From Streptomyces paludis (GTDB lineage Bacteria; Actinomycetota; Actinomycetes; Streptomycetales; Streptomycetaceae): DNA of 64,000 nucleotides. The translations under genes were made by a program, and so were the position numbers. The notes under the pieces are model-generated. The model saw nothing but the letters and a program-made list of their open reading frames with translations, searched no databases and had not been told where the DNA came from. The first letter of the stretch is position 1; every line of letters begins with the position of its first letter. Location: the NCBI RefSeq assembly GCF_003344965.1, contig NZ_CP031194.1, positions 3,162,001-3,226,000 on the forward strand, read 5' to 3'. Of this stretch, positions 39,303 through 61,618 are shown piece by piece.

Positions 39303-40862
39303 ATGAGCAGCGCGATTCACCGCATCTCGCACCGGCGGCCTGTGGCTGCCTCGACGCCAATCCGGCAGCCTCGGGGCGGGAGTTCGGAGGGGAACGCGGC
39401 GCAGCGTGCTCTGCTCGGGATCCAGGCCGGTGCCGGCAATCGGGCCACGGTCGTGGCGGTGCAGCGTGCCAGGGACGCGGCGAAAGGGAAGGCGGCAGAG
39501 GGGCGTAACGCGGCTGGTGGTGCTAAGAGTTACCGCGATCGGATCTCCGCCGTTCTCAACAAGCTCAAGACGCATCTTGAGTTCATCGACACCTTCGTCA
39601 AGGGCCTTCATGTCCCCGCCAACGCGGGTATCTCCCAGCAAGCCTCCGCCACGGTCAGCGACGGTCTCAAACACTCCGCCGGCTCGTCGGGGACCGCCGC
39701 CGCGTCGGAGAACCTGGTTACGGAGGCCGCCGGCGCCGTGCTGAGTGGTATGGAAGCGGGCAAGGCCAGGAAGGACGCCAAGAAGTACGGGAGTGGGGCC
39801 GCCTTCCACAGCGCGGACAAGAAGGCCAACTCCAAAACGGCCGACGCGGTCGTCGGTGCCGCCAGCTCCGGTAGCTACGCCCTCGGTATCGCCAAGGAGC
39901 TGACCAAAGCCCAGAAGATGGCACACGCCGCGACGATGTCCGAGGCGAGCGGTATCGGATCCGGTGTGGTCGGCGTGGTGAAGGGCGTCCGTGCGGCGGG
40001 GCGTACTGGACTGACGGCTCGTAAGTACCGCGCGCTGAAGGGGATTTCGAGGTCCGACCGTACCGACGAGGTGGCGCTGGCCCGGCTGAACCAGGCGCGG
40101 CAGGAGGCCGAATGGGCCGCGGCCGAGGCGTACATCGCGCTGGGCACCCACTGGGAACACGAGGGCGAAGACAGGCTGGAGCGTGTTTCCGAGGCCATCG
40201 ATACGGCCTGGGCGGCGATGGGTGACGCCCGTGACGCGGGCAGGGACCTGCGGCGCGCCGAGGACGTGAACACCATGGATACGGTGCACACGTACGCGCT
40301 CGGCAAGCAGCGCAACAAGATCGGCAAGCAGGCGCTGACCGCTGTGGGCGAGTCCACCAAGGCCGCGGGCGGCATCGTCACGGCGGTCGCCGCCACGGCG
40401 GGAGGCGCCGGGCTGGCGAGCAATCCGGTCGGGTGGGGCCTGGCCGCGGGTGCGGCGGGTCTGATCCTGGGCGTCACCGCCTACAAGGCGGGCCGGGCGG
40501 GCATGAAGCGTTACGAGGGGGCGCGCCACCCTGAGCGCTGGGCGGCGGACGAGACGCCGGCGGAGCCCGCCTCGCGCGAGGACGCGCTGAAGGAGGCGCT
40601 GAAGTTCTGGAAGAAGGTGGAGAACGGCGAGCGCCAGGCCATGGCCCGTAAGCTCTACGGTTTGGCGGCGGGCGCGGACATCAAGGGAAGCGGCGACACG
40701 TCGCCCGAGATGCGGGGCTCGGCCAGAGCGCTTCTCGTCGCGCTCAAGTCAGGCCCCACCCAACACCGGCAGACCCCGGACGAGTGGGCGGATTCGCTCA
40801 ACGACCCGGCCAAGAGCGGTGCTTGGGTGAAGGAGATCGCGGCGCAGTTGTCTTCGGCCTGA
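39303..40862 (+). CDS. Hypothetical protein with contractile-injection-type N-terminal motif
   Basis: 519 residues, ATG behind AGGAGAGG. Residues 32-55 read AAQRALLGIQAGAGNRATVV then AVQR, close to the L-x-x-L-Q-x-x-A-G-N-x-A-V-x-x-x-V-Q-R string found at the front of many actinobacterial DUF4157/eCIS-linked proteins. The middle is alpha-helical, with ARLNQARQEAEWAAAEAYIA. A Gly/Ala-rich hydrophobic stretch near residues 355-400 (AVAATAGGAGLASNPVGWGL) could insert in membranes. The rest matches nothing I know. No sheath or tube genes are in the window. Possible injected cargo or toxin; speculative. Confidence 0.55.
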   Translation: MSSAIHRISHRRPVAASTPIRQPRGGSSEGNAAQRALLGIQAGAGNRATVVAVQRARDAAKGKAAEGRNAAGGAKSYRDRISAVLNKLKTHLEFIDTFVKGLHVPANAGISQQASATVSDGLKHSAGSSGTAAASENLVTEAAGAVLSGMEAGKARKDAKKYGSGAAFHSADKKANSKTADAVVGAASSGSYALGIAKELTKAQKMAHAATMSEASGIGSGVVGVVKGVRAAGRTGLTARKYRALKGISRSDRTDEVALARLNQARQEAEWAAAEAYIALGTHWEHEGEDRLERVSEAIDTAWAAMGDARDAGRDLRRAEDVNTMDTVHTYALGKQRNKIGKQALTAVGESTKAAGGIVTAVAATAGGAGLASNPVGWGLAAGAAGLILGVTAYKAGRAGMKRYEGARHPERWAADETPAEPASREDALKEALKFWKKVENGERQAMARKLYGLAAGADIKGSGDTSPEMRGSARALLVALKSGPTQHRQTPDEWADSLNDPAKSGAWVKEIAAQLSSA

Positions 40863-42227: not shown

Positions 42228-42965
42228 TCACCGCACCAGGATCAGGCCGCAGCTGTACGCGCGGGCGTGGCCGATGCCGCGGGTGAGGGCGGCCACGAGG
42301 GTCGCCGGGTCCGTCACGGTGAGGGATCCGCGGATTTCCGCGCGGATGATGCGCAGGCCCTTGTGCGGTGCCGGGCTGGAGACGGTGGGCAGCATACGGA
42401 CCGCCAGGGCGGCGGGGTCCGCGGTGGCTCCGACGCGGGCGAGGCCGCTCTCCTCGGCGGGAGGTTCCCCCTCGGCCTGGAGACGGCGCAAGAACCAGTT
42501 CTTGACGTGGTCGGGGCGGGTGTGGGCAACCCTGACGCCGCGCACCTTGGCGTCGGCGGACCCGCCGGCCGGTGACTTGCTGTGGGTGGGATGGACAACC
42601 GTACGGAAGTCGAGGGTGTCGCCCACCCGGAACGTACGGTCGACGGTGAGGGTGTGCGGTTCGTCGAGGAGTGCCGCGCGGGGGACACGGCTCCAGTCTC
42701 CCGGGACTCCCGACTGGACCACCAGGACGAGGGACGCCCGCTTGAGGTCGACGGACCAGGTCGACAGAACGCCCATCTGCGCGCGGGCGTCGCGGCTTCC
42801 GTTGTCGACCCAGCCGCGGAATCCGCTCATGACCGTACGGTGCATGTCCTGCGCGTCCACAAGGGACTTCGCCGCGTACGGGTGCCGCGCGTCCAGTGTC
42901 AGGACGGAGTGGGTGGCGACAAATCGGGCGGTCGCCGAGGGGGCCGTGGGGCGTGTGGTCTTCAT
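42228..42965 (-). CDS. cas6e: Cas6e (CasE) crRNA-processing endoribonuclease, type I-E
   Basis: 245 residues from the ATG at 42965 with GAGGA just upstream. Catalytic His42 lies in VDAQDMHRTVMSGF, matching the Y/D-x-x-x-L/M-H pattern of E. coli His20; the C-terminal glycine-rich RNA-binding loop reads GIGHARAYSCGLILV. The enzyme therefore looks competent to cut CRISPR repeats and stay bound to the 3' hairpin. It is the last gene of the operon, 7 bp after cas5e. Confidence 0.92.
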   Translation of the reverse strand: MKTTRPTAPSATARFVATHSVLTLDARHPYAAKSLVDAQDMHRTVMSGFRGWVDNGSRDARAQMGVLSTWSVDLKRASLVLVVQSGVPGDWSRVPRAALLDEPHTLTVDRTFRVGDTLDFRTVVHPTHSKSPAGGSADAKVRGVRVAHTRPDHVKNWFLRRLQAEGEPPAEESGLARVGATADPAALAVRMLPTVSSPAPHKGLRIIRAEIRGSLTVTDPATLVAALTRGIGHARAYSCGLILVR

Positions 42966-42972
42966 GTGGTCC

Positions 42973-45925
<2,953 letters not shown>

Positions 45926-45926
45926 G

Positions 45927-47504
45927 TCATACCCCCCTGAGTTCGGCCGGGGCTCGGCGCCCGGTCAGCTCGTCCTTGAGACGGCGCAGCGCCACGGCAC
46001 GCGCCCTCAAGCCCTGGTTGTTCCGCGGCAGCGAGTCGAGGCGCTTGGTGAGGAATTGGATGGCCGCGGCCTGGAGTGTGTCCGCGTAGTCGAGGAGGGA
46101 GTCCGGTACCGGCTCCCCCTCGGCGGTCTCCTCCAGAAGGATCTGGAACGGGCCGGCCGCGGCCGGCCAGTGCTCCGCTCTGGCGTCAAAACGGGCGACC
46201 TGCCGGTCCCTGTCGGACGGTCTGGGATTCGGATAGGCGACTTCCCAGGCCGCGTACGCCGCAATCTGAAGGCTCCGGGCCACGTGTTCGGCAATGGCCG
46301 AACCGCGTCGCGACGCCTCGTGCAGCTCATGGTCCATATGCGGGGCGAAGGGGAAAAAGCCTTCGGTCCAGGAGATGGGCAGAGTCTTGTTGGCGACGAG
46401 CCCGACAGCCCAGAGTTTGAGGGAGTGCGGGCCGGGGCGCCGGGGTAATTCCCCCAGGAGTCCGTACAGACCGGCCTGCCGCTCGGTGACGGCCGCGTAG
46501 AGCGCGTGGGCTTTCAGCCACAGGGCGCGGCTCGCGGAGGGCCAGAGCGGCTTGACCGTACCCCCCATTGTTCTAGCGAAAACCGCGTCCTGAAGATGGC
46601 GCATCTCCAGGGTGAGCAGTTCGCCGGCGCCGATCAGTACGCGGTCGACGTGAACGGTGGTGCCGTCCGGCCCGATCGTGGGCCGCAGCAGCACCGACCG
46701 GCCGAGGTAGCTGTGGAGATCGGCGGGCCCGCTCACCTCCCGCCCGGGCGGTCTGGCCTGGAAACCCCGGCGTGCCATGTCCCCCGTGGTCCAGGAGAGG
46801 TTGAGGGTGCCCTTGGGGCCATTGGGCGGGTAGAGGTTGAGACGTAGCGTCTCACCGAGAGTGGTGCCGAGCGCGAGTACCCGGATCCTGCCACTGAGCC
46901 GACCGGCGGAAAGGTTGGTGATGGCGGGGCCGAGGGTCGCCTTGCCGGATATGCGGGCGCGGGCGGGTAACCCGTACACATGCTGCGTGAGCATGGCGCG
47001 GAAGGCGTCGGCGGGAAGAAAGGGCTCGGGGTGTTCGAGGTGGTGGTGGTCGAAGAACTGACTGTAGTCACCGGACCGTTCCACGACGAGCTGGGCCGGT
47101 CCTGTGCCGTGTTCATCGAGAAATGGGGCGAGGAGGATGTTCTGCCCCAGCGGTTGAGTGGGATGGAACAGATCCCAGTTCTCGTCGGGCTCATCGGCCA
47201 GCCAACTGGCAGCCCGGTCGAGTGAGTGATCCTCCTCGACCCATGTCTGCCATTCCTCCACGGACGAGGGGTACGTCTCGGACGCGTAGCAGAGGGCGAG
47301 CAGATGCTCGATGACCGCGACCGTCTCACCGGGCGTCGCCCCACTCACGGCCCGCAGTTTCTCTGCTTGCGCGAGCAGCTCGACGAGGCTCAGCTCGACC
47401 ATGGCGCCGTCAAGGGCCACAGCCGGGACACATGGGTTCCGTCTGGGGTCCCAGTGGGGGCGGGGAGGGGCGGGGGACGGACCGGGTAATGGAGCGCGGC
47501 TCAT
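45927..47504 (-). CDS. cse1: Cse1 (CasA/Cas8e), type I-E large subunit
   Basis: 525 residues from the ATG at 47504 behind AGAGAGGGGGAGCAG. Recognisable Cse1 segments: VELSLVELLAQAEKLRAVSG, HPTQPLGQNILLAP, LHSYLGRSVLLRP and a helical C-terminal domain. Cse1 reads the PAM and, in normal I-E systems, recruits Cas3. Here no cas3 is found upstream (47.5-48.65 kb) or anywhere in the window, so target DNA would be bound but not cut unless Cas3 is encoded elsewhere. First gene of the five-gene Cascade operon. Confidence 0.93.
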   Translation of the reverse strand: MSRAPLPGPSPAPPRPHWDPRRNPCVPAVALDGAMVELSLVELLAQAEKLRAVSGATPGETVAVIEHLLALCYASETYPSSVEEWQTWVEEDHSLDRAASWLADEPDENWDLFHPTQPLGQNILLAPFLDEHGTGPAQLVVERSGDYSQFFDHHHLEHPEPFLPADAFRAMLTQHVYGLPARARISGKATLGPAITNLSAGRLSGRIRVLALGTTLGETLRLNLYPPNGPKGTLNLSWTTGDMARRGFQARPPGREVSGPADLHSYLGRSVLLRPTIGPDGTTVHVDRVLIGAGELLTLEMRHLQDAVFARTMGGTVKPLWPSASRALWLKAHALYAAVTERQAGLYGLLGELPRRPGPHSLKLWAVGLVANKTLPISWTEGFFPFAPHMDHELHEASRRGSAIAEHVARSLQIAAYAAWEVAYPNPRPSDRDRQVARFDARAEHWPAAAGPFQILLEETAEGEPVPDSLLDYADTLQAAAIQFLTKRLDSLPRNNQGLRARAVALRRLKDELTGRRAPAELRGV

Positions 47505-47685
47505 CTGCTCCCCCTCTCTGCTACTGCTCGTACTGGCCACAACTCGCAGTGCTCGCCCACGCACTCTGGACGATCTCCGCTGGATCGATTCAGGACGCTA
47601 GCAGCGGCGCGGGTGCGGTATGAGCGGTTTGCCGAAGATCAAGCGGGCTTGCGTCCTGGGCGGGGTCGGCGGCGGCCCCGAAAGC
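47505..47685 (-). promoter_or_regulatory. cas operon upstream region
   Basis: 181 bp before cse1. Candidate promoter pieces on the minus strand are TTGATC near 47641 and a TAGCGT hexamer near 47601, but their spacing is not standard. No cas3 fragment and no further repeat is present here. Confidence 0.35.
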
Positions 47686-47708
47686 GAAGGGGCCCACCGG
47701 GCCCCTTC
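47686..47708 (-). terminator. Stem-loop ending the mini-array transcript
   Basis: GAAGGGGCCC (47686-47695) pairs perfectly with GGGCCCCTTC (47699-47708) around three bases. On the minus strand it directly follows the second CRISPR-like repeat and is followed by GCTTTC. It would end a small RNA of roughly 105 nt made from the mini-array, separate from the cas mRNA. Confidence 0.65.
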
Positions 47709-47791
47709 CATCCCCGCGCACGCGGGGTGTGCATACGAATAACGCGCCCCCATCCAACGGGCCATCCCCCGCAACCCCGGGGGCGAACACG
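47704..47791 (-). CRISPR. Degenerate two-repeat CRISPR-like mini-array (CreA-like)
   Basis: On the minus strand the downstream repeat (47732-47704) contains CCCCGCGTGCGCGGGGATGG, a 16-base perfect I-E type stem plus the ATGG start of the crRNA handle seen in actinobacterial I-E repeats. An upstream repeat (about 47791-47758) is degenerate: CCCCC-GGGGTTGC-GGGGG then ATGGCCCG. The two share 19 of 30 positions. The pseudo-spacer between them, 47757-47733, is about 25 nt, shorter than the usual 32. Its first 11 bases (TTGGATGGGGG) recur at 48335-48325. A TAGCCT hexamer (47804-47799) ends 7 bases upstream of the first repeat and may be its -10 box. Confidence 0.7.
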
Positions 47792-47950
47792 AACATCGAG
47801 GCTACCGGCCGGAGTGAAAAGCCGGGACATGCATCTCGCGATGGACGGTGCAGCAACCGCGAGCCTATGGTTGAAGACTCCCCGTTGCGTTCGGCAAACA
47901 CGCTGACCATGGTGTTTGGCGAAGCGCCGACGCGACAGCCGTTCCTTGGC

Positions 47951-47984
47951 GGGGTCTCGCTCCGCTGCAACGGAACGAGACCCC
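47951..47984. other. Stem-loop downstream of the 37-residue peptide gene
   Basis: GGGGTCTCGCTCCG (47951-47964) pairs with CGGAACGAGACCCC (47971-47984) with one mismatch. With the next hairpin at 48002-48040 it makes a double structure past the peptide stop codon. 47792-47950 otherwise holds no gene I can support. Confidence 0.6.
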
Positions 47985-48001
47985 TGAGGAGTGGTGGGAC
48001 G

Positions 48002-48040
48002 CGGCTGCTCTCGGCGCGCTTATTGGGCCGAGAGCAGCCG
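48002..48040 (-). terminator. Terminator abutting the 37-residue peptide stop codon
   Basis: CGGCTGCTCTCGGC (48002-48015) pairs perfectly with GCCGAGAGCAGCCG (48027-48040). On the minus strand the stem starts directly after the TGA at 48043-48041, so the peptide would be encoded on a short, structured transcript. Confidence 0.8.
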
Positions 48041-48154
48041 TCACAGGAGAGCGTCCACGCCCCTGCCGACCAGAACCGATACAACTGCCGCGATCACGGT
48101 CAGAACCAGCTCAGTCCTGTACCGACTCAGCCACTCCCATAAGCGATCAACCAT
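48041..48154 (-). CDS. 37-residue predicted membrane peptide
   Basis: The ATG at 48154 opens MVDRLWEWLSRYRTELVLTV followed by IAAVVSVLVGRGVDALL. It has an amphipathic Trp/Arg head and one hydrophobic helix (residues ~15-29), the layout of small membrane-active toxins. AGGAAGGGC lies 8 bases upstream and a perfect stem-loop follows the stop. It sits between the CRISPR-like mini-array and the promoter-like segment that matches the pseudo-spacer seed. Toxin function is inferred from context and composition only; too small for family assignment. Confidence 0.55.
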   Translation of the reverse strand: MVDRLWEWLSRYRTELVLTVIAAVVSVLVGRGVDALL

Positions 48155-48183
48155 GTCTCGATGCCCTTCCTGCCTCCGGGGGC

Positions 48184-48201
48184 CCTGCCCAGTTGGGCAG
48201 G
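48184..48201 (-). other. Hairpin in the leader of the 37-residue peptide gene
   Basis: CCTGCCCA and TGGGCAGG pair around two bases, about 30 bp upstream of the peptide ATG and just before its ribosome-binding site. It could hide the site or shape the leader RNA. Confidence 0.6.
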
Positions 48202-48303
48202 ACGCACGGCCGCAGAACGCGCAACTCGGTCGGCGCCACGTGAATCAGTGTGGCACTCGCCGCCATTTGCCGTACACAGATTGACCAACTTCGTCCCCAC
48301 CAG

Positions 48304-48335
48304 ATGCTACAAGAAAAACGCATTCCCCCATCCAA
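48304..48335 (-). promoter_or_regulatory. Promoter-like segment matching the pseudo-spacer seed
   Basis: On the minus strand TTGGATGGGGG (48335-48325) repeats the first 11 bases of the mini-array spacer; after a 2-base offset GCGTTTTTC resembles spacer bases GCGTTATTC. The three bases 5' of the match are AAT, close to the AAG-type PAM of I-E systems. A TAGCAT hexamer (48309-48304) fits a -10 box, so transcription would start near 48297 and run toward the 37-residue peptide gene. A Cascade bound here would cover this promoter. Confidence 0.55.
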
Positions 48336-48360
48336 ATTGGATTCTAAATCCGCCCCTCCC

Positions 48361-48540
48361 TTAACACGGCGGCCGGCGCCGCATCAGGATCGCCAGTGTG
48401 GCCCGGGCGTCGCGGCGGCGGGCCGGGCTGCGGGACGCGATCGAGGCCGTGGCGACGGCCAGCAGTGTGACCGCGTACGTCATGCCGGTGACGGCGGTCA
48501 GCGCGGCGATGTCGTTCAGTACGGCGGGCAGTAAGGACAC
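48361..48540 (-). CDS. Small hypothetical membrane protein
   Basis: 59 residues from the GTG at 48540, with GGAAGGGG well placed upstream. MSLLPAVLNDIAALTAVTGM leads into a helix TYAVTLLAVATASIA and a basic tail RSPARRRDARATLAILMRRR. One transmembrane segment, positive end inside. Codon third positions are GC-rich. It ends 25 bp before the spacer-matching segment and reads the same way as the 37-residue peptide gene. Function unknown. Confidence 0.5.
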   Translation of the reverse strand: MSLLPAVLNDIAALTAVTGMTYAVTLLAVATASIASRSPARRRDARATLAILMRRRPPC

Positions 48541-48651
48541 GGCGGGCCCCTTCCGGAGTCGGGCCCGGCGGTCGTGTCCGCCGGGCTTCGGCAGCAGGTT
48601 GCCGCGCCGAGTTCCTTTCCATCGACCTCCTGATGGGTAGGAAGACTTCAA

Positions 48652-51600
48652 ATGCCCTGGTCAGACCACATACAGAAAGCCTCCAGCGACATGTCTGCAG
48701 CTGAAACCGGAGCGCCGGGGCACCGGCGAGGAGCCGCAAGGCCGACAGCGATGCCTCTCCACGTGAGGTTCGCCCGTCTGTACGAGGCGGCACGTGCTCA
48801 GCACCCTCACATCTCGCTCGAATACCTTGCGAAGTCCGTGCTGCATGGGGCGGTAAGCGTCTCGACCATCGGCAACTGGAGAACCAAGGAAACAGCACAG
48901 AAAAAGGAGAACTGGGATTCCTTCATTCAACTCGTCCACTATCTGGAGGAGCATGCACAAAATCACCCAAAATTTCCCACACATAGATGGCTGGAGGCCG
49001 TCGTCGCCAGCTCTCAAGAGAGCAGAAAAAGAAAGACGGGACGCCCGCCGGCATCCGGCATCCGTCGCACCCATGTAGCCTCCGACATCGCGGCACCCGA
49101 ATTCGTCGGCCGGGAAGCCGAGTTAGCCGAGCTGACATCGTTCGCTACCGCCCGCGGCGGCACCAGTCCCTCCTATGCCTGGTGGCAGGCAGGGCCGTGG
49201 GCAGGGAAGACCGCACTGCTGGCCTCGTTCGTCGTGGATCATCAGCCGGCCCATGTGGACATCGTCAGCTACTTCATTTCGCGCAGCCGAGGTACCAACA
49301 CCAGGGACCTGTTCCTGGATTCTATGGCGGAGCAATTGGCAGCCGTCGCGGGGAAAAGACTCTCAGCGAGTTCGTCTCGCGATTACGCTCTGGTGTGGAA
49401 GCTTTACCGGGATGCCGCTCGGGCCAGTGACGCTCGCAAGCGCACTCTCCTCGTCGTCGTGGACGGGCTCGACGAGGACGAGGGCGCGGGAATGCCCGGC
49501 CGCAGTATCGCCGCGGTCCTTCCGAAAAATCCCCCACGCGGTATGCGCGTTCTGGTCACCGGCAGGTCAAACCCGGCCCTCTCGGCGGATGTTGACGCCG
49601 ACCATCCTCTGCGGGACAGCAACCATGTCCGGGTGCTCGCCGTATCGTCCGAAGCGCTGATCATCCGGGACGCGGCCATGCAGGAGCTGTCGAGGCTGCT
49701 CGACGACCCTTTGGGCAGTGACCTTCTCGGCCTGTTGTCCGCGGCACGCGGCGGGCTCGGCCTCGACGACCTCGCCGAGCTGACCGGGGCGTCGCCCTAC
49801 AAGGTCGAGAAGCTCGTACGCGGTGTGACCGGCCGCAGCATGGCGCCGCAGAGCGCCGGGCCGCCGACGTACGTACTGGCGCACGAAGGACTGCTTCAAG
49901 AGGCGCTGAAGGCGCTGGGCAAGTCCGAGGTCACCCGGTACGAGCAGCGCCTCCACGACTGGGCCGACGCGCATCACGTGATGGACTGGCCGGCGGACAC
50001 CCCTTCGTATCTCCTCACCCACTACACCTGGCTCCTCCGCCACAACAGTGACACCACCCGTCTGACGAAGTACGTCCTCGCCCCGAAGCGTCAGTTACGC
50101 CTCGCCGCCGAGTCAGGCGCGGATCTGGCCCTTGCGGAACTACGGCTGCTGCTTGAGTCCGTCAGTCCCGAGGGCACAGAGGGCGCAGAGGGCTACTCGG
50201 GCGGCCAGGACCGCCCGGGTGGTACGGCCACGCCCAAGGCTCTCGCCGTCGCCGCGGCCGTCGCCGTATCCCGGGAGTTTCTGCTCAGCCACGCGCGGGC
50301 GGTGCCGCGCGATCTGCTCCGGGCATTCGCCCGTATCGGAGACACCGGAGACGTACGGCGGGCCAGGGCGCTCGCCCTGCTGGCCCCGCATCCGAGTGCG
50401 CGAGCGCTGAGGCTGAGCGATATCAGCCGCAATCTCGCGAACAAGGAAGAGGCTTTGGCGCTGGCGCGGGAGGCGGCCGTGTGGGCGTCAGAAGGCCGGT
50501 GGCACATCCCGCCTCTCCCGCCGGAGGACGAGGAGGCGGACGTGGACACGGCGCTTGCCGAGTCGGCCGGTGCGCTCCTCAGAGCGGGGGCTCATAACGA
50601 GGGGCTTGATCTGCTGCGTTCCGTCGAGGCCCGCAGCGCGGCATGTTTCACGGCGGTGGCCGCGGCGGCGGCCGATCTTCTCCAGATCGACGGACAGGAA
50701 GACGCCGCTGCGGCAGTCCTGGATGGTCTGAAAGAGCAGGCCGAGTTTCTCGCGAGTGACATGGTGGGCCATGGAGCGGTCGCCATCGAGGTGTGGGGCG
50801 CGCTGGTCAAGGTCGTCACTCCCAAGGAGGCGACCAAGATCTTCGACCGGATGGAGGAAGAGTGCCGCGAAGTATGGGCCTGCTCCCCTGAACTGACCGT
50901 CGTGGACACCCTGGCGCTGGCCGCCACCGCACTGGCCGGACGCAGACGCACCCACGCCCGGGACTTCGCCGACCTCACCGTAGAACGCCTCCTCGCCGCC
51001 TTCCGGGCCCCCGAGTCACTGAGTGCCGAAGACCACGCCCACATGGCCCTCGGGCTCGCCACAAGCCTGGCCCGCGTCGTACAGGCATTGATCGACACGG
51101 GCGACCGCAGGTCCGAGGCGGCAGAGCTGCTGGAGGCGGTTCCGGAGGACCTCCGCACCAGGTTCTCCGGATACGACGTCCGCGACGCGGCCCGTGCCGT
51201 ACTCGGGGAGCGGCGGAGCGCGGACCCTGGTGACGCGTCGCTCGGTCCAGGCCCCGATCCAGGCCCCGATCCGGTCCTGGATGTCGAGAGGCTGATCATC
51301 GAGGCGCGCCACCTTTCGGAACACGGCAACGCCCCGGAAGCCCGGCAGCGCCTGGACGAGGTCCTGCGGCTGCTCGCCCTGCCGGGAAGCGGCACCGAGC
51401 CCGCGGTGCGGTGGCTGCCCGCGCTGGCCGGCGCTCTGGCGGGCAGCGGCAAGTACGCCGAGGCCGAACAGCTCGCCCCGTGGATGCCGGACGACAACGG
51501 GCGGGCCCGGCTCCACGCCGCCTCGTCGATGGCGTGCGCGGCATCGGTGGACCGTACGAAGGCGCTGGAGTTCGCCCGCAGGGCCGATCACACCACCCGG

Positions 51601-52503
51601 AACTCGGATACCCATCCCGCCACCCGCGCCGTCATCGCCCAGGCCCTGGCCCACGCCGGCGACGCCACCCGCGCCATGGAACTCGCCGAACAGATGGAGC
51701 CCACGGGCGGACTCCGCCGAGGGCAGGTACGGCAACAGACGCGGCATGCCCTCGTGGCCGTCTCGGCGGGTCTCGCCGCCTATGCCCCGGACGCCGCGAA
51801 CCGTATCGTCGAGGACCGGTTGGCCAAGCTGGCCGCACACGCCGACCTGCCCGGGGCGCGGGCGCGCCGCCTGCCCGAACTGGCCGAACTGCTCCTCGGC
51901 GTAAAGGACATGGAGCAGCCCTGCTACGAACCACTGCGCACGGCCATCCGTACAACATGCGGGCGCGACGACGTTCATCCGGCGGAGCGGGAGTACGGAA
52001 CCGTGGCCGTCCACGTGCTCCTGGGCCTCGCGGCGCGCGGTGCTCCTGCTCCGGATGTGCGCGCCGAAGTGAAGTGGCTGGAGGGAAAGGTGAGGAACAG
52101 CCCTCCGCATGTGGCACCGGCAGATCAACTGGCCGTTCTGTACGCGCTGATGGGCGACGTGGACGCGGCGCGGCGGACTGCCGCCCGCCCGCGGTCCACG
52201 GCACTCCGTGCGGCGGCCTACTCCGCTGTGGCCGGTCAACTGGCTGGAATCCGCGACTACTTGTCTACGTCGTGCGACTCGTCCAGTACCGAACCGGCCA
52301 TCCATCGGCTCCGGGCACTGGCGCTGGCGTTGGTTCCGGCCGCCCCGAGGGATGCTGAGGCGGCCCGGGGTTTCGTCTGGCAGGCGCTGGCGGAGGACGG
52401 CTGGCACCACGCGCTCCCCTTGCTGGCGCAGCTGGCACCGGAGGCGGTGACGCGGGTGGGGGACATCACCCGCGTCCACTTGGGGTCGCACTCACCGCAA
52501 TGA
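48652..52503 (+). CDS. STAND-type NTPase with N-terminal HTH and C-terminal TPR-like helices
   Basis: 1283 residues from the ATG at 48652 (TAGGAAGACTTCAA upstream); ATG at 48691 is an alternative. Residues ~50-100 look like an HTH or small helical domain (ISLEYLAKSVLHGAVSVSTI). FVGREAELAELTSF opens the NTPase; Walker A GPWAGKT at 181-187, Walker B LLVVVDGLDEDE at 266-277, and VLVTGRSNP near 300 form a STAND P-loop module. From about residue 500 the protein is repetitive alpha-helix (EALALAREAAVWASEGRW), TPR-like and suited to sensing. It is divergent from the cas3-less Cascade operon. STAND proteins often trigger defensive cell death. Confidence 0.85.
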   Translation: MPWSDHIQKASSDMSAAETGAPGHRRGAARPTAMPLHVRFARLYEAARAQHPHISLEYLAKSVLHGAVSVSTIGNWRTKETAQKKENWDSFIQLVHYLEEHAQNHPKFPTHRWLEAVVASSQESRKRKTGRPPASGIRRTHVASDIAAPEFVGREAELAELTSFATARGGTSPSYAWWQAGPWAGKTALLASFVVDHQPAHVDIVSYFISRSRGTNTRDLFLDSMAEQLAAVAGKRLSASSSRDYALVWKLYRDAARASDARKRTLLVVVDGLDEDEGAGMPGRSIAAVLPKNPPRGMRVLVTGRSNPALSADVDADHPLRDSNHVRVLAVSSEALIIRDAAMQELSRLLDDPLGSDLLGLLSAARGGLGLDDLAELTGASPYKVEKLVRGVTGRSMAPQSAGPPTYVLAHEGLLQEALKALGKSEVTRYEQRLHDWADAHHVMDWPADTPSYLLTHYTWLLRHNSDTTRLTKYVLAPKRQLRLAAESGADLALAELRLLLESVSPEGTEGAEGYSGGQDRPGGTATPKALAVAAAVAVSREFLLSHARAVPRDLLRAFARIGDTGDVRRARALALLAPHPSARALRLSDISRNLANKEEALALAREAAVWASEGRWHIPPLPPEDEEADVDTALAESAGALLRAGAHNEGLDLLRSVEARSAACFTAVAAAAADLLQIDGQEDAAAAVLDGLKEQAEFLASDMVGHGAVAIEVWGALVKVVTPKEATKIFDRMEEECREVWACSPELTVVDTLALAATALAGRRRTHARDFADLTVERLLAAFRAPESLSAEDHAHMALGLATSLARVVQALIDTGDRRSEAAELLEAVPEDLRTRFSGYDVRDAARAVLGERRSADPGDASLGPGPDPGPDPVLDVERLIIEARHLSEHGNAPEARQRLDEVLRLLALPGSGTEPAVRWLPALAGALAGSGKYAEAEQLAPWMPDDNGRARLHAASSMACAASVDRTKALEFARRADHTTRNSDTHPATRAVIAQALAHAGDATRAMELAEQMEPTGGLRRGQVRQQTRHALVAVSAGLAAYAPDAANRIVEDRLAKLAAHADLPGARARRLPELAELLLGVKDMEQPCYEPLRTAIRTTCGRDDVHPAEREYGTVAVHVLLGLAARGAPAPDVRAEVKWLEGKVRNSPPHVAPADQLAVLYALMGDVDAARRTAARPRSTALRAAAYSAVAGQLAGIRDYLSTSCDSSSTEPAIHRLRALALALVPAAPRDAEAARGFVWQALAEDGWHHALPLLAQLAPEAVTRVGDITRVHLGSHSPQ

Positions 52504-58306: not shown

Positions 58307-61300
58307 TCAGGTGACGTCCTCCTCCGCGAAGAGGGCGCCATCGGGACGCTGCCGCGGCTTGCGGCTCGCGGCGGTGACCGGCAGCACTCCGGCGGCGGTC
58401 AGGTCGGCGTGGGTGAGCACGGGGGCGGCGAGTACCGCGGTCAACAGGTCGTTCTGGGGCGGGGCCAGGTCGGTGAGACGGCGGAGCACCGAGAGCAGTT
58501 CGATCAGCTCCCTCGTCCATTCTCCCGGCCAGGACTCGACGTGGATCTTGTCAAGCGGACTGGTCTTCTTGCTGCTGGGGTGCGCCTTGCGGTAGCCGAA
58601 CCACTTGTTGACGATCCGCATGCCGCCGACGTCGTACTCCCATACGGCTTCGGGCACGGGCGCGAATGTTCCCTCGCCGACGTACAGCGTCTGTGCCGTC
58701 GAGTTGTACCGCAGCGCGTCCGGGACAGCCGTACCGATGGGGGTGAGATAGCGGACCTGCCGCTCGTCCCCCACCGGAAAATCGACGCGGGCGGCGGGCC
58801 GTCCGGCGTCCTGGTCGGCGCACCGCTCCCCGTAGGTCGAGGCCCACAGCACCTCGCGGCCGAGGGCGACCGCCCGGTCCCACAGCGCCGGATCGCGAGT
58901 CAGGGGCAGGCGTACGCCCGGCGTGAGCAGCTCCTCGGCGAAGCGCTCGGTGAAGGCGCTGTGTCCCGCGACGGCGACGGTGTACGCGGCCAGTTCGGGC
59001 GCGGTGACGCGTTCCGCGCCCAACGCGCGGGCCAGCTGGGACAGCAGCCCGGCGGGGGTGTTGGGGGAGCCGTCGGGGTGCAGTACGGGCATGATCCGGC
59101 CGCCACGCCCGTTGAAGTGGTCGGTTTCGGGAAGGAGATGGGTCGCCACCACGGCGGGCCCCGAGCAGATCGCGTGTGACGACTGCTGGTTGAGGAAGAG
59201 CTGCCCGTCCTGTGCCGACCTCCACAGGTCGGCGCGCGGTCGATCGAGCACCCGGTTGTCCGCGACCAGCCACTGGCGGTCGAAGCTGCGCAGCGCCGTA
59301 CGGACGAGTTCGGGGCGCACGGAGGTCTCATGGCCGATCGGGCGCGCATGGGCCTTCCGGCCCGGTAGCGGTTCCTTCCTGCTGTCGAGTGTGCGGCCGT
59401 CGGTCTCCTTGAACAGGACTCCCTTGCGCTCCGGGTCGCTCTCCCGTACCAGCGTCGTCCAGCGCCTCCGGAGCGTCTCGTCGGAGGGCGAAGTGACCCA
59501 GGCACGGTTCGACGTCATGCCAAGACTGCTCCAGGGGAAAAGCTCGTCCAGCGCCGGGAAGTCCTCCCAGCCGGACTCGGTCAGCGGGGTGAACGGGCGC
59601 GCCTCCTGGGTGTGGGTCTCCCGCCAGCCCCCGTCGTCCAGTCCGATATCACGCAACTGCCGGAACTTCTCGGCGCGTTTGCCGGCGACCGAACGGTAGT
59701 GGACGCGTGCGTGGTGTCCCTCCGTCCGGACCACGCCCGCCCTGCGGACGAAGACGCAGATAGCGAGCGGCTGGGCGACGCCGGGGAAGATACGGGTGGC
59801 GACCTCCGACCGCTGTCCCTCGGGCGAGAGGTTGATGATCCAGCCCTCGTCGCACGTACGCCGCAGATACGCGCGCATGCCCCGGCCGCCCGGGCCGGTG
59901 GCCCACCCGGAGGGGGTGATGAGGCAGACCACACCGTGCCGGCCGTCCTCGTGGGCGTCGAAGACCTTCCAGGTGGTCCAGCGCCAGAAATACACGTACA
60001 TGTTCTTGAGGAAGTGCTCGTACCGCCCGTTGCCCGGATACCGGAAGGCATGAAGCAGGGGAATGTCCGGGCCACCACTGCCCTTCTCCACCCAGCCGCC
60101 GCGGTTCTCCGCCTTGTGGTCGTAGGGAGGATTCGTGATGGCGGCTGTGACCTCGATGTTCGCCTTCAGTCTGTTGGCGCGCCGCCGGGAGTCGGACAGC
60201 GGACCGGAGGTGGACGGGAGGTACTCGTCCTCCACGAAGGGGTTGTCGAGGGTGTCGGTGACGAAGAGGTTGAGACCGTTGTCGGGCAAGGGCGAGTCGT
60301 AGCGCTTGAGGAGTTCCGACGTCCGTAACTCGGCGACCGCGTAAGGGCCCATCTGCAATTCGAAGCCGGAGAGGCGCGAGGCGAGCCGGGAGATGGCGTC
60401 CGGCGCCATGGCCGGTCCGTAACGCTCCTCGGCCTGTGCCGCCACCCGCTCGATGATCGTGTGGAGAAAGGTCCCGGTGCCCATGGCGGGATCCACGATC
60501 CGTACCTCATCCGAGCCGAAGCCGTCGGGCCGGCCCAGTCGGGTGCGGAGCACGTCCTCGGTGAGGCGGACCATCTCCTCCACGATCTCGTGCGGGGTGT
60601 AGTACGAGCCGCTGCTCTGCCTCAACTCGGAGTCGTACACGGTCAGGAAGTGCTCGTAGAGGTGGAGGTAGGCGTCGCGGTTCCCCGCTCGGATCGCCTC
60701 CCAGTCCACCTGGGCGATCGTGCCGCGGAGGAGTTCGAGCGTGACGGTGAAGCGTTCGTTGACATGGCCGGTGAGCAGTTGCAGCGCCCGGCCCATCAGC
60801 GCGTGATCGGCGTCCAGGCGGCGGCCGACCTCGTGGAGGCCCGTGTCCTCGGTCAACAGCCCGTCGGAGCGGGCCAGCAGCAGCGCGAAGGTGACCGCCT
60901 GCGCGTAGCCGTCCGCGAACGTGGCGTTGTCGGCGGACGGGAAGAGCAGCTTGCGCCAGTCGTTCTTCAGTCCGGTGAACGGCCTGGCGCGGATGTCGTC
61001 GTCCGGAGCGGCCGAGCCGGCTTCGGCGGCCAGCTGTTCCAGGACGGCGGAGCGCAGGAGGCGGCAGAGCGGTGCGACATGCTGGACAAGACGGGGTACC
61101 CGGGTGATGGGCTCGGGCTTCCACAGGAGAAACGTCTTCAACAGGGCGTCGAACGATGCCGGGTCCGCGGGGGCGAGCTTGGTCCCGGCGCTCTTCAGCG
61201 TCCCGGTGAACCGGACGGTCTCGCCCAGCTGACGGCCGTCCCGGAAGATCCGCCACTCCGTACCGTTGGAGTAGAGCAGATTGGGCAGATTCCGCAGCTT

Positions 61301-61618
61301 TTCCCACTGCTCCCGGTTGGCCTTGCCGAACGTATCCGGATCGACGGGGAGACCGGGTCTCTTCAGTTCGATGTAACCGGTCAGGTCGCCGCCGACACGG
61401 ACCGCGTAGTCGGGCCGCACCCCGAGTCCGGGGATACGGAACTCGTCGTGCCACATGACATCGGGCCGCTGGTGGTGCTCACCCACCGCCTGGAGCAACA
61501 CTTCGAGGGGACCGCGGATGGACGCTTCGTCGCCACCGCCCCCGGACAGTTTGAGTTTGGACATACGCCCGAACTCCGCCACGGCGTCGAGCAGCCAGCC
61601 GTACATCCCCCCTGGCAT
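58307..61618 (-). CDS. Type ISP restriction-modification enzyme (nuclease + methyltransferase in one chain)
   Basis: 1103 residues. N-terminal PD-(D/E)xK-like nuclease: VRPDYAVRVGGDLTGYIELK gives D and E-L-K. Middle: N6-adenine methyltransferase with motif I at Asp376 (DPAMGTGTFLHTI) and motif IV NPPY at residue 496. C-terminal ~400 residues should be the type ISP target-recognition part (SSLGMTSNRAWVTSPSDETL, RVDFPVGDERQVRYLTPIG). No helicase motifs are visible between nuclease and methylase, so a simpler type IIG-like action is possible. It modifies host DNA and cuts unmodified DNA. Start could also be ATG at 61606 or 61564. Confidence 0.85.
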   Translation of the reverse strand: MPGGMYGWLLDAVAEFGRMSKLKLSGGGGDEASIRGPLEVLLQAVGEHHQRPDVMWHDEFRIPGLGVRPDYAVRVGGDLTGYIELKRPGLPVDPDTFGKANREQWEKLRNLPNLLYSNGTEWRIFRDGRQLGETVRFTGTLKSAGTKLAPADPASFDALLKTFLLWKPEPITRVPRLVQHVAPLCRLLRSAVLEQLAAEAGSAAPDDDIRARPFTGLKNDWRKLLFPSADNATFADGYAQAVTFALLLARSDGLLTEDTGLHEVGRRLDADHALMGRALQLLTGHVNERFTVTLELLRGTIAQVDWEAIRAGNRDAYLHLYEHFLTVYDSELRQSSGSYYTPHEIVEEMVRLTEDVLRTRLGRPDGFGSDEVRIVDPAMGTGTFLHTIIERVAAQAEERYGPAMAPDAISRLASRLSGFELQMGPYAVAELRTSELLKRYDSPLPDNGLNLFVTDTLDNPFVEDEYLPSTSGPLSDSRRRANRLKANIEVTAAITNPPYDHKAENRGGWVEKGSGGPDIPLLHAFRYPGNGRYEHFLKNMYVYFWRWTTWKVFDAHEDGRHGVVCLITPSGWATGPGGRGMRAYLRRTCDEGWIINLSPEGQRSEVATRIFPGVAQPLAICVFVRRAGVVRTEGHHARVHYRSVAGKRAEKFRQLRDIGLDDGGWRETHTQEARPFTPLTESGWEDFPALDELFPWSSLGMTSNRAWVTSPSDETLRRRWTTLVRESDPERKGVLFKETDGRTLDSRKEPLPGRKAHARPIGHETSVRPELVRTALRSFDRQWLVADNRVLDRPRADLWRSAQDGQLFLNQQSSHAICSGPAVVATHLLPETDHFNGRGGRIMPVLHPDGSPNTPAGLLSQLARALGAERVTAPELAAYTVAVAGHSAFTERFAEELLTPGVRLPLTRDPALWDRAVALGREVLWASTYGERCADQDAGRPAARVDFPVGDERQVRYLTPIGTAVPDALRYNSTAQTLYVGEGTFAPVPEAVWEYDVGGMRIVNKWFGYRKAHPSSKKTSPLDKIHVESWPGEWTRELIELLSVLRRLTDLAPPQNDLLTAVLAAPVLTHADLTAAGVLPVTAASRKPRQRPDGALFAEEDVT

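Follow-up and report, generated by a model that had tools for sequence, protein, structure and literature searches.

A degenerate CRISPR mini-array beside a Cas3-less type I-E Cascade in Streptomyces paludis matches a PAM-flanked site upstream of a small hydrophobic peptide ORF: a candidate CreTA/CrePA-like module

In the window, by which we mean the whole 64,000-nucleotide stretch analyzed here (positions 3162001-3226000 of the one-contig, 8,454,852-base genome of Streptomyces paludis), a degenerate repeat-spacer-repeat unit lies beside a type I-E Cascade operon, and the first 11 nt of its pseudo-spacer recur behind a PAM upstream of the ORF of a 37-aa hydrophobic peptide. The anatomy of the locus, the unique match with its PAM, the covariation of guide and target among relatives, the mismatches of the family at flipped bases, and the lack of Cas1 and of any recognised Cas3 in the genome are read directly from the sequences. 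Based on these features, we consider it probable that the locus is a CreTA/CrePA-like module, in which a guide-loaded, cutting-dead I-E Cascade represses a peptide toxin that is released when Cascade fails. RNA-guided repression at the site upstream of the peptide appears very likely from the sequence, and toxicity of the peptide, argued by analogy and from the anatomy, has a somewhat better than even chance.

The cas operon is encoded on the minus strand in the order cas8e-11-7-5-6. The cas8e (Cse1) gene (45927..47504) starts with ATG at 47504 or with an upstream GTG at 47564, and it is followed by cas11e (Cse2; 45287..45925), the cas7e open frame (43821..45428), cas5e (42973..43824) and the cas6e open frame (42228..43010), where the starts of the cas7e and cas6e frames are uncertain. 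The operon contains no cas3 or cas1 and adjoins the divergent gene of a STAND NTPase (48652..52503, plus strand; Xre-HTH, ATPase and TPR), which was assigned to STAND_TPR by PADLOC (E 1e-279), a label associated with cas1-less I-E systems of Streptomyces, and to NPHP3_N by Pfam (E 4e-9). Along the minus strand from the STAND gene toward the cas operon, the locus presents a 59-aa small membrane protein (P59; 48361..48540), for which a Pfam search found no family, then the target site, the peptide with its stem-loop, the mini-array with its stem-loop, and cas8e.

The preliminary description had placed a degenerate repeat-spacer-repeat unit on the cas strand, with handle-like bases directly before the seed, and the unit was indeed found there. 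Repeat 1 (47758..47786, minus strand) ends in the handle ATGGCCCG, and its hairpin and ATGNNCCN handle resemble those of the genome's own I-E repeats. The 25-nt pseudo-spacer (47733..47757, minus strand) is a candidate guide whose first 11 nt, TTGGATGGGGG, form the seed, and in repeat 2 (47705..47732, minus strand) the hairpin is kept while the handle has decayed. A predicted stem-loop without T tract (47687..47707, minus strand) closes the unit. The predicted fold of the guide-unit RNA is unexceptional (z -1.86; 8/200 shuffles as stable). In it, repeat 1 is paired to the seed's G run, so its own hairpin is absent, and the repeat-2 hairpin is present. The division of handle and hairpin between the two repeats is the same as in two-repeat creA genes, most of which, in the available text of PMC8501985, better keep the handle in repeat 1 and the 22-nt part in repeat 2.

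The window contains two exact copies of TTGGATGGGGG (47757-47747 and 48335-48325, each on the minus strand), against 0.04 expected. As had been described, the second copy is preceded on its 5' side by AAT, and the target site defined by this sequence match (48325..48338, minus strand) comprises the PAM AAT (48338-48336) and the 11-nt protospacer seed, and it precedes the start codon of the peptide by 181 nt. With position 6 left free, AAY+TTGGANGGGGG occurred once in the 8.45-Mb genome, at this very site, and the reversed control pattern had 0 occurrences genome-wide. Fake guides drawn from the locus equalled the real intergenic match in 2/20,922 cases, and with all positions weighted equally the target was the unique best among 952 AAN-flanked sites. 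Considering the genome-wide uniqueness, the window expectation, the fake guides and the position-blind AAN scoring, we rejected a chance match for this locus. When any PAM was admitted and all positions were again equal, a site with PAM GAT in the 22-kb stretch of the locus beat the target by one mismatch over 14 bases. The similarity that had been proposed to continue past the seed (GCGTTATTC and GCGTTTTTC) exists, but it is two bases out of register and therefore cannot pair in a Cascade R-loop. The proposed -10-like box, TAGCAT, is likewise present (48309-48304), but a second such hexamer, TAGAAT (48346-48341), lies on the other flank of the target, and neither a promoter nor a T-tailed terminator turned up when 47500-48700 was scanned for consensus sequences.

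Downstream of the match, a tiny membrane peptide had been predicted, and the 37-aa hydrophobic, predicted transmembrane ORF (MVDRLWEWLSRYRTELVLTVIAAVVSVLVGRGVDALL; 48041..48154, minus strand), our candidate toxin, is indeed present. Its start is preceded by GGAGG/GGAAGG, and an inverted repeat read from the sequence (48184..48201, minus strand) lies just 5' of this RBS; similar hairpins were seen by eye in other peptide loci. A stem-loop, also read from the sequence (48002..48039, minus strand), follows immediately after the stop codon, so both the guide unit and the peptide unit end in stem-loops as had been claimed. The eight peptide sequences of the family align with an invariant W residue and a hydrophobic segment, and their length is 33-49 aa, with a 77-aa frame in locus L074. 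The Kyte-Doolittle peak over 19 residues was 2.03 for the peptide of the window and 1.22-2.01 for the others; the customary transmembrane cut for hydropathy, 1.6, was exceeded in 5/8 and the peaks were low in 3/8. In the five pairs compared, of 28 possible, pN was smaller than pS (ratio 0.65-0.96), which points to weak purifying selection on the peptide. At the level of its sequence, the candidate toxin looks like a conserved protein, in contrast to CreT, which is defined by toxins that are RNAs. No Pfam family, KilA-N included, was found for the 37-aa peptide at E 0.01.

In a profile search of 392 genomes, the seven strong peptide matches (E < 1e-12) were in the genomes that supply 7/8 profile rows, and the other 385 genomes, including 19 further ones with Cas8e, gave no strong match. 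Besides 11 weak remaining matches (E 7e-4 or worse), one intermediate match (E 6.6e-5) was found in genome G054 (G054:C1:123744-123851), a 38-aa homologue with a TTA codon by eye; its contig has no Cas8e, no mini-array was seen by eye, and no significant STAND match was obtained within 6.7-8.2 kb (best E 0.037). TTA codons, which need the bldA tRNA, account for 6/368 peptide codons vs 29/24,781 codons in the 49 cas8e frames. In the window, TTA is codon 5 of the peptide, a position shared with L039 and L056; TTA occurs in 5/8 peptides, although such shared positions are not independent, and also in 24/49 cas8e frames.

To place the locus among its relatives, we assembled Cas8e-bearing loci. Relatives of Cas8e were present in 26 of 392 genomes of the genus including the window's own, and the other 25 were taken; a genome contig collection added 19 loci, plasmids gave 26 records of which 8 were taken, and a scan of 395 related genomes found 16 with Cas8e, one of them new. 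After five duplicates were dropped, 49 loci remained, including that of the window and both L067 and L087, whose Cas8e is identical. A STAND gene is present in 33/49 loci. The presence of STAND and Cas3 was rechecked by composition-corrected tblastn, and the tblastn tables for the peptide, P59 and cas genes are uncorrected and noisy, worst for cas6e and cas7e. By these uncorrected tables, a relative of P59 lies beside the STAND gene in 33/33 STAND loci. Upon composition-corrected recheck, P59 was over the limit only in the window and L057, with a relative, P58, in L047, L069, L070 and L074, so the P59 assignment is based on the uncorrected tables together with position and orientation. Within the examined stretches of the 33 STAND loci, a full-length cas3 was found in L036 and fragments in L039 and L051. 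A Cas8e tree was built from 48 loci, L054 being too short; in it, all 33 STAND loci group together with support 100/99, and the peptide state requires four changes, a number as low as which was reached in 0/500 shuffles.

The expectation that homologous loci would keep the module held in part. The peptide and a guide fitting a site upstream of it were found together in 8/33 STAND loci (the window's, L039, L056, L058, L069, L070, L071 and L074), six with strong and two with suggestive support. In L039 the peptide cassette is located away from the P59 gene, and since this locus sits inside the cas8e-guide group, the cassette appears to have been moved or regained. No peptide was found in the other 25/33, and in 14 of them the guide fits the cas8e start instead (L036, L037, L038, L040, L041, L043, L048, L049, L051, L057, L061, L081, L083 and L084). 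Nine cas8e-class STAND loci have the STAND and P59 genes behind cas6e, and the guide is there as well. The guide of L089 fits a site that precedes it by 112 nt and was kept as a separate class, and 10/33 STAND loci (L042, L045, L046, L047, L050, L053, L055, L062, L068 and L082) have no supported pair. In sum, a self-directed guide was assigned in 23/33 STAND loci. Peptide matches from the uncorrected tables (E 0.02-0.04), which in both L036 and L057 fall across the cas8e start and in L081 on the opposite strand, were left out of these counts.

It had been suggested that seed and target might co-vary in homologous loci while staying complementary, and this was borne out in the eight peptide-bearing loci. 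Their seeds differ between lineages: TTGGATGGGGG in the window, ACAGAGGGGTT in L039, TCGGTGGCGG in L056, TCGGTGGCGTT in L058, TCGACGGCCTC in L069, TCGACTCCTTT in L070, TCGGGAGCCTG in L071 and GCGACTCGGTC in L074. In its own region, the core seed matched at 10/10 positions in the window, L039, L056, L058 and L074, at 9/10 in L070, and at 8/10 in L069 and L071. Against foreign regions the guides reached 4-8 core matches, and 9 only between the near relatives L056 and L058; the score of 8 of L071 was tied by the region of L058, and the other guides were highest in their own region. In the seven other loci the target lies in the same kind of place as in the window, with the small upstream gene on one side and the peptide on the other (in L039 the cassette is apart from P59), and the distance to the start codon is 127-181 nt in 8/8. 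As each of these different seeds fits its own region, the link between the guide and the peptide-upstream site is well supported. Fake guides reached the real score in 0/12642 cases for L039, 0/14421 for L056, 14/14409 for L058, 1/14683 for L074 and 24/13035 for L070, and in 256/13617 for L069 and 273/14515 for L071 (0.019 each), so that the last two are only suggestive singly. L068, which has a mini-array, was dropped as a peptide-class pair, as 1863/14425 fakes (0.13) did as well, and it is still counted in the tables of 36 guides and of nine peptide-class guides given below.

Several of these loci have further features near the target. The 10/10 site of L058 is flanked by the PAM GAC, and another site, flanked by AAC, scores 9/10; tandem target sites 22-27 nt apart lie upstream of the peptide in both L056 (-700, -673) and L058 (-717, -695). 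In L069 (-576) and L070 (about -580), a CRISPR-repeat-like hairpin lies in the peptide 5' leader just before the start codon and could be a Cas6e site. In L074, a hairpin outside the mini-array (-1901) fits the same target slightly longer. The cas8e gene of L074 (genome G171) is split over two frames, and its peptide frame, from which the usual stop and stem-loop are missing, continues into the mini-array; this is possibly a natural case of Cascade lost together with the toxin, or a sequencing error.

Cascade flips every sixth base, and the mismatches between guides and targets are concentrated at positions 6 and 12, as expected from the flipped bases. In the 26 cas8e-class pairs (14 from STAND loci and 12 from others), positions 1-5 and 7-11 match in 24-26/26, whereas 6 pairs match at position 6, 11 at position 12, and 3-11 at the positions from 15 to 24. 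Part of the pair list had been found with a scoring lenient at positions 6 and 12, so the target choice was repeated with plain Hamming distance; these position-blind reruns redo the choice of target, for guides that were not chosen blind. With any PAM, over whole loci and both strands, the assigned target was the unique best for 23/36 guides, namely 20 of the cas8e class, 2/9 of the peptide class (L039 and L070) and L089, and positions 6 and 12 took 15 and 14 of their mismatches, respectively, with 6 in all at the remaining twelve positions. Among AAN-flanked sites, it was the unique best for 31/36, namely 25/26 of the cas8e class, 5/9 of the peptide class (the window, L039, L056, L069 and L070) and L089, and here positions 6 and 12 took 22 and 19 mismatches, respectively, with 17 in all at the remaining twelve positions; L071 and L074 were tied with other sites, and L058 (PAM GAC) and L068 were not best. 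An unbiased pair scan with 60 shuffles per locus picked the reported pair in the window, L036, L037, L039, L044, L049, L056, L057, L066, L067, L070, L085, L087, L088 and L089, the second site (PAM AAC) in L058, the reported pair at p ~0.1 in L069 and L071, and a different guide in L074; its top pairs in L042, L061 and L076 were taken for noise. For guides downstream of cas6e, targets were restricted to the cas8e start and repeat-like hairpins were chosen by eye, as was also done for the distant Cas3-bearing loci L072, L073, L075-L077 and L079, and matches of similar score without repeat-like hairpins (e.g. in L041, L043 and L071) were left uncounted. The PAMs of the 36 assigned pairs are AAC in 31, AAT in 2, AAG in 2 and GAC in 1, so AAC/AAT accounts for 33/36. 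According to the part of PMC4762764 available, I-E acquisition in S. avermitilis uses AAG; AAC/AAT may be a bound-not-cut variant.

The genome has one copy of Cas8e. No Cas1 was found genome-wide, and no genome-wide match to cas3_core was over the cut-off (best 31 bits vs 102); PF22590 was uninformative for Cas3, being matched in 14/14 control genomes as well. As such, this Cascade does not represent a normal immune system. Orphan arrays at 2.896-2.900, 2.920, 2.934, 3.580 and 5.014 Mb of the genome hold 54 I-E-type spacers, none of which matched the window with an AAN PAM and 10 core positions; one orphan-array stretch compared with phage genomes gave only unconvincing 71-73% pieces (E 0.07). 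With the degenerate mini-array in the locus and these canonical arrays elsewhere, the genome does not lack CRISPR arrays.

Among described systems, for which CreTA, CreR and CrePA are reviewed in PMC12737573 (seen here as an excerpt), the locus resembles CreTA in its layout. Like CreTA (type VIII TA; Haloarcula I-B and Acinetobacter I-F), in which two degenerate repeats next to Cascade genes enclose a pseudo-spacer that partly matches a PAM-flanked site upstream of a small neighboring gene, the window has by sequence a degenerate-repeat crRNA-like gene beside Cascade genes and a spacer partly complementary to a PAM-flanked site. Unlike CreT, which is an RNA, the candidate toxin resembles a conserved hydrophobic peptide, and the host system is an I-E type without Cas3 or Cas1 that adjoins a STAND NTPase. 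CrePA, a KilA-N protein toxin under CreA control, is similar in that a protein toxin is (or, for the candidate toxin here, would be) repressed by a crRNA-like guide and the Cas effector and would be freed by anti-CRISPRs, whereas the candidate toxin of this family is an unrelated hydrophobic peptide of 33-49 aa without Pfam match. CreR, a crRNA-like RNA that autorepresses cas, uses the same kind of degenerate mini-array, and the guides of relatives that fit the cas8e start are of this known kind, considering that CreR acts in I-B, I-E and V-A in the accessible text of PMC13131331; the target in the window, however, lies upstream of the peptide and not at the cas operon.

The locus also belongs, by PADLOC STAND_TPR, to the minimal I-E variant of Streptomyces with STAND, described as lacking Cas3, the adaptation module and an array (Koonin and Makarova 2022, PMC8730458, in part). 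The variant, with its small membrane proteins, is also covered by Shmakov 2018, as cited in PMC12231136, whose accessible part states that experimental evidence on it is still to be provided. While the variant is described as array-less, a self-directed guide was assigned here in 23/33 loci. Among the matches listed in a search of open-licence literature by titles and abstract beginnings, no description of guides in STAND-linked I-E Streptomyces loci was found. Guides in these loci would supply the orphan Cascade with both an RNA and a target, which makes its role open to direct test. If the proposed module is true, guide-controlled toxins extend to a cutting-dead I-E Cascade and a small membrane peptide. 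Within a single gene family, moreover, some guides fit cas8e (autoregulation) and others the region upstream of a peptide gene, a natural series for the origin of such modules.

From this anatomy we infer RNA production, repression, the position of a promoter, toxicity and the trigger as follows. A short crRNA-like RNA (repeat-25 nt-repeat) would be processed by Cas6e, carry the 5' handle AUGGCCCG and load into Cascade. The guide would lead Cascade to the PAM-flanked seed match upstream of the peptide start codon, where bound Cascade would block transcription of the peptide. Given the only partial pairing and the lack of Cas3, the site would be bound and not cut. Upon loss of Cascade, its inhibition by an anti-CRISPR or its shut-off, the peptide would be made and would most likely damage the membrane, serving addiction and/or abortive infection. 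A broader and more tentative reading, suggested by a dedicated guide aimed at its own locus, is that the Cas3-less Cascade acts as a sentinel and not as an immune effector: it would keep the peptide (in relatives, the cas operon) silenced and signal its own failure, and release would raise an abortive-infection alarm through the peptide alone or via the STAND NTPase. Its triggers would be anti-CRISPRs, host shut-off, and titration of Cascade by orphan-array crRNAs on invading DNA, and the alarm may be coupled to development by the TTA codons.

Guide-controlled repression could also serve a peptide that is not a toxin. The peptide might be a small membrane protein with a regulatory role, such as a ligand or partner licensing the STAND NTPase as the death effector; STAND NTPases are called putative death effectors in the part of PMC8730458 available, the STAND gene defines the 33 loci, and P59 was found beside it in all. 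We regard this as unlikely, because no peptide was found in 25/33 STAND loci, so that STAND does not depend on it, and the G054 homologue has no significant STAND match within the distance searched. The toxic product might instead be the RNA, a strongly translated mini-ORF whose TTA codons tie up the scarce Leu-UAA tRNA (bldA). The TTA share of the peptides, above that of cas8e frames, and the presence of TTA in 5/8 favor this, and the H. hispanica CreT with AGA codons (PMC8501985, in part) is a precedent. We nevertheless think it improbable, since the amino-acid similarity reaches beyond the rare codons, 3/8 peptides have no TTA, the shared positions are not independent, and TTA is found in about half of the cas8e frames (24/49).

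Two further explanations concern the guide itself, and we consider both very improbable. If it regulated the cas operon in the manner of CreR, as the guides of 14 STAND relatives suggest and as the frequency of cas8e-fitting guides in the family would lead one to expect, the match near the peptide would be incidental. We rejected this for the window, where no comparable cas8e match exists: the only AAN-PAM pair with at least 9 seed matches from -4000 to +300 of cas8e is the peptide site, which is also the only AAY-flanked full-seed match in the genome. Equally, the unit could be the decaying remnant of a dead array that had acquired its spacer from the host, an origin to which the degenerate repeats and the out-of-register similarity past the seed, a hint of a formerly longer match, would conform; a seed that is kept and co-varies across deep divergence, and family mismatches mostly at tolerated positions, speak against such decay. 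The guide acting on the peptide in a CreTA/CrePA-like module accordingly stays our preferred reading.

Some observations on the surroundings and on other loci are added here. In L044, L066, L067, L087 and L088, a protein with only the HD domain of Cas3 lies beside cas8e, at whose start the guide finds its match. L087 and L088 also have an adjoining AAA ATPase with WD40 repeats, and no STAND_TPR relative was found there. In the window, a 519-aa protein (39303-40862, plus strand), for which a Pfam search found nothing, has an N-terminal QRALLGIQAGAGNRA motif that we take to resemble eCIS cargo leaders. A type IIG/ISP restriction-modification enzyme (58307-61618, minus strand) is encoded about 6 kb past the STAND gene, and its proximity suggests a defence island around the locus.
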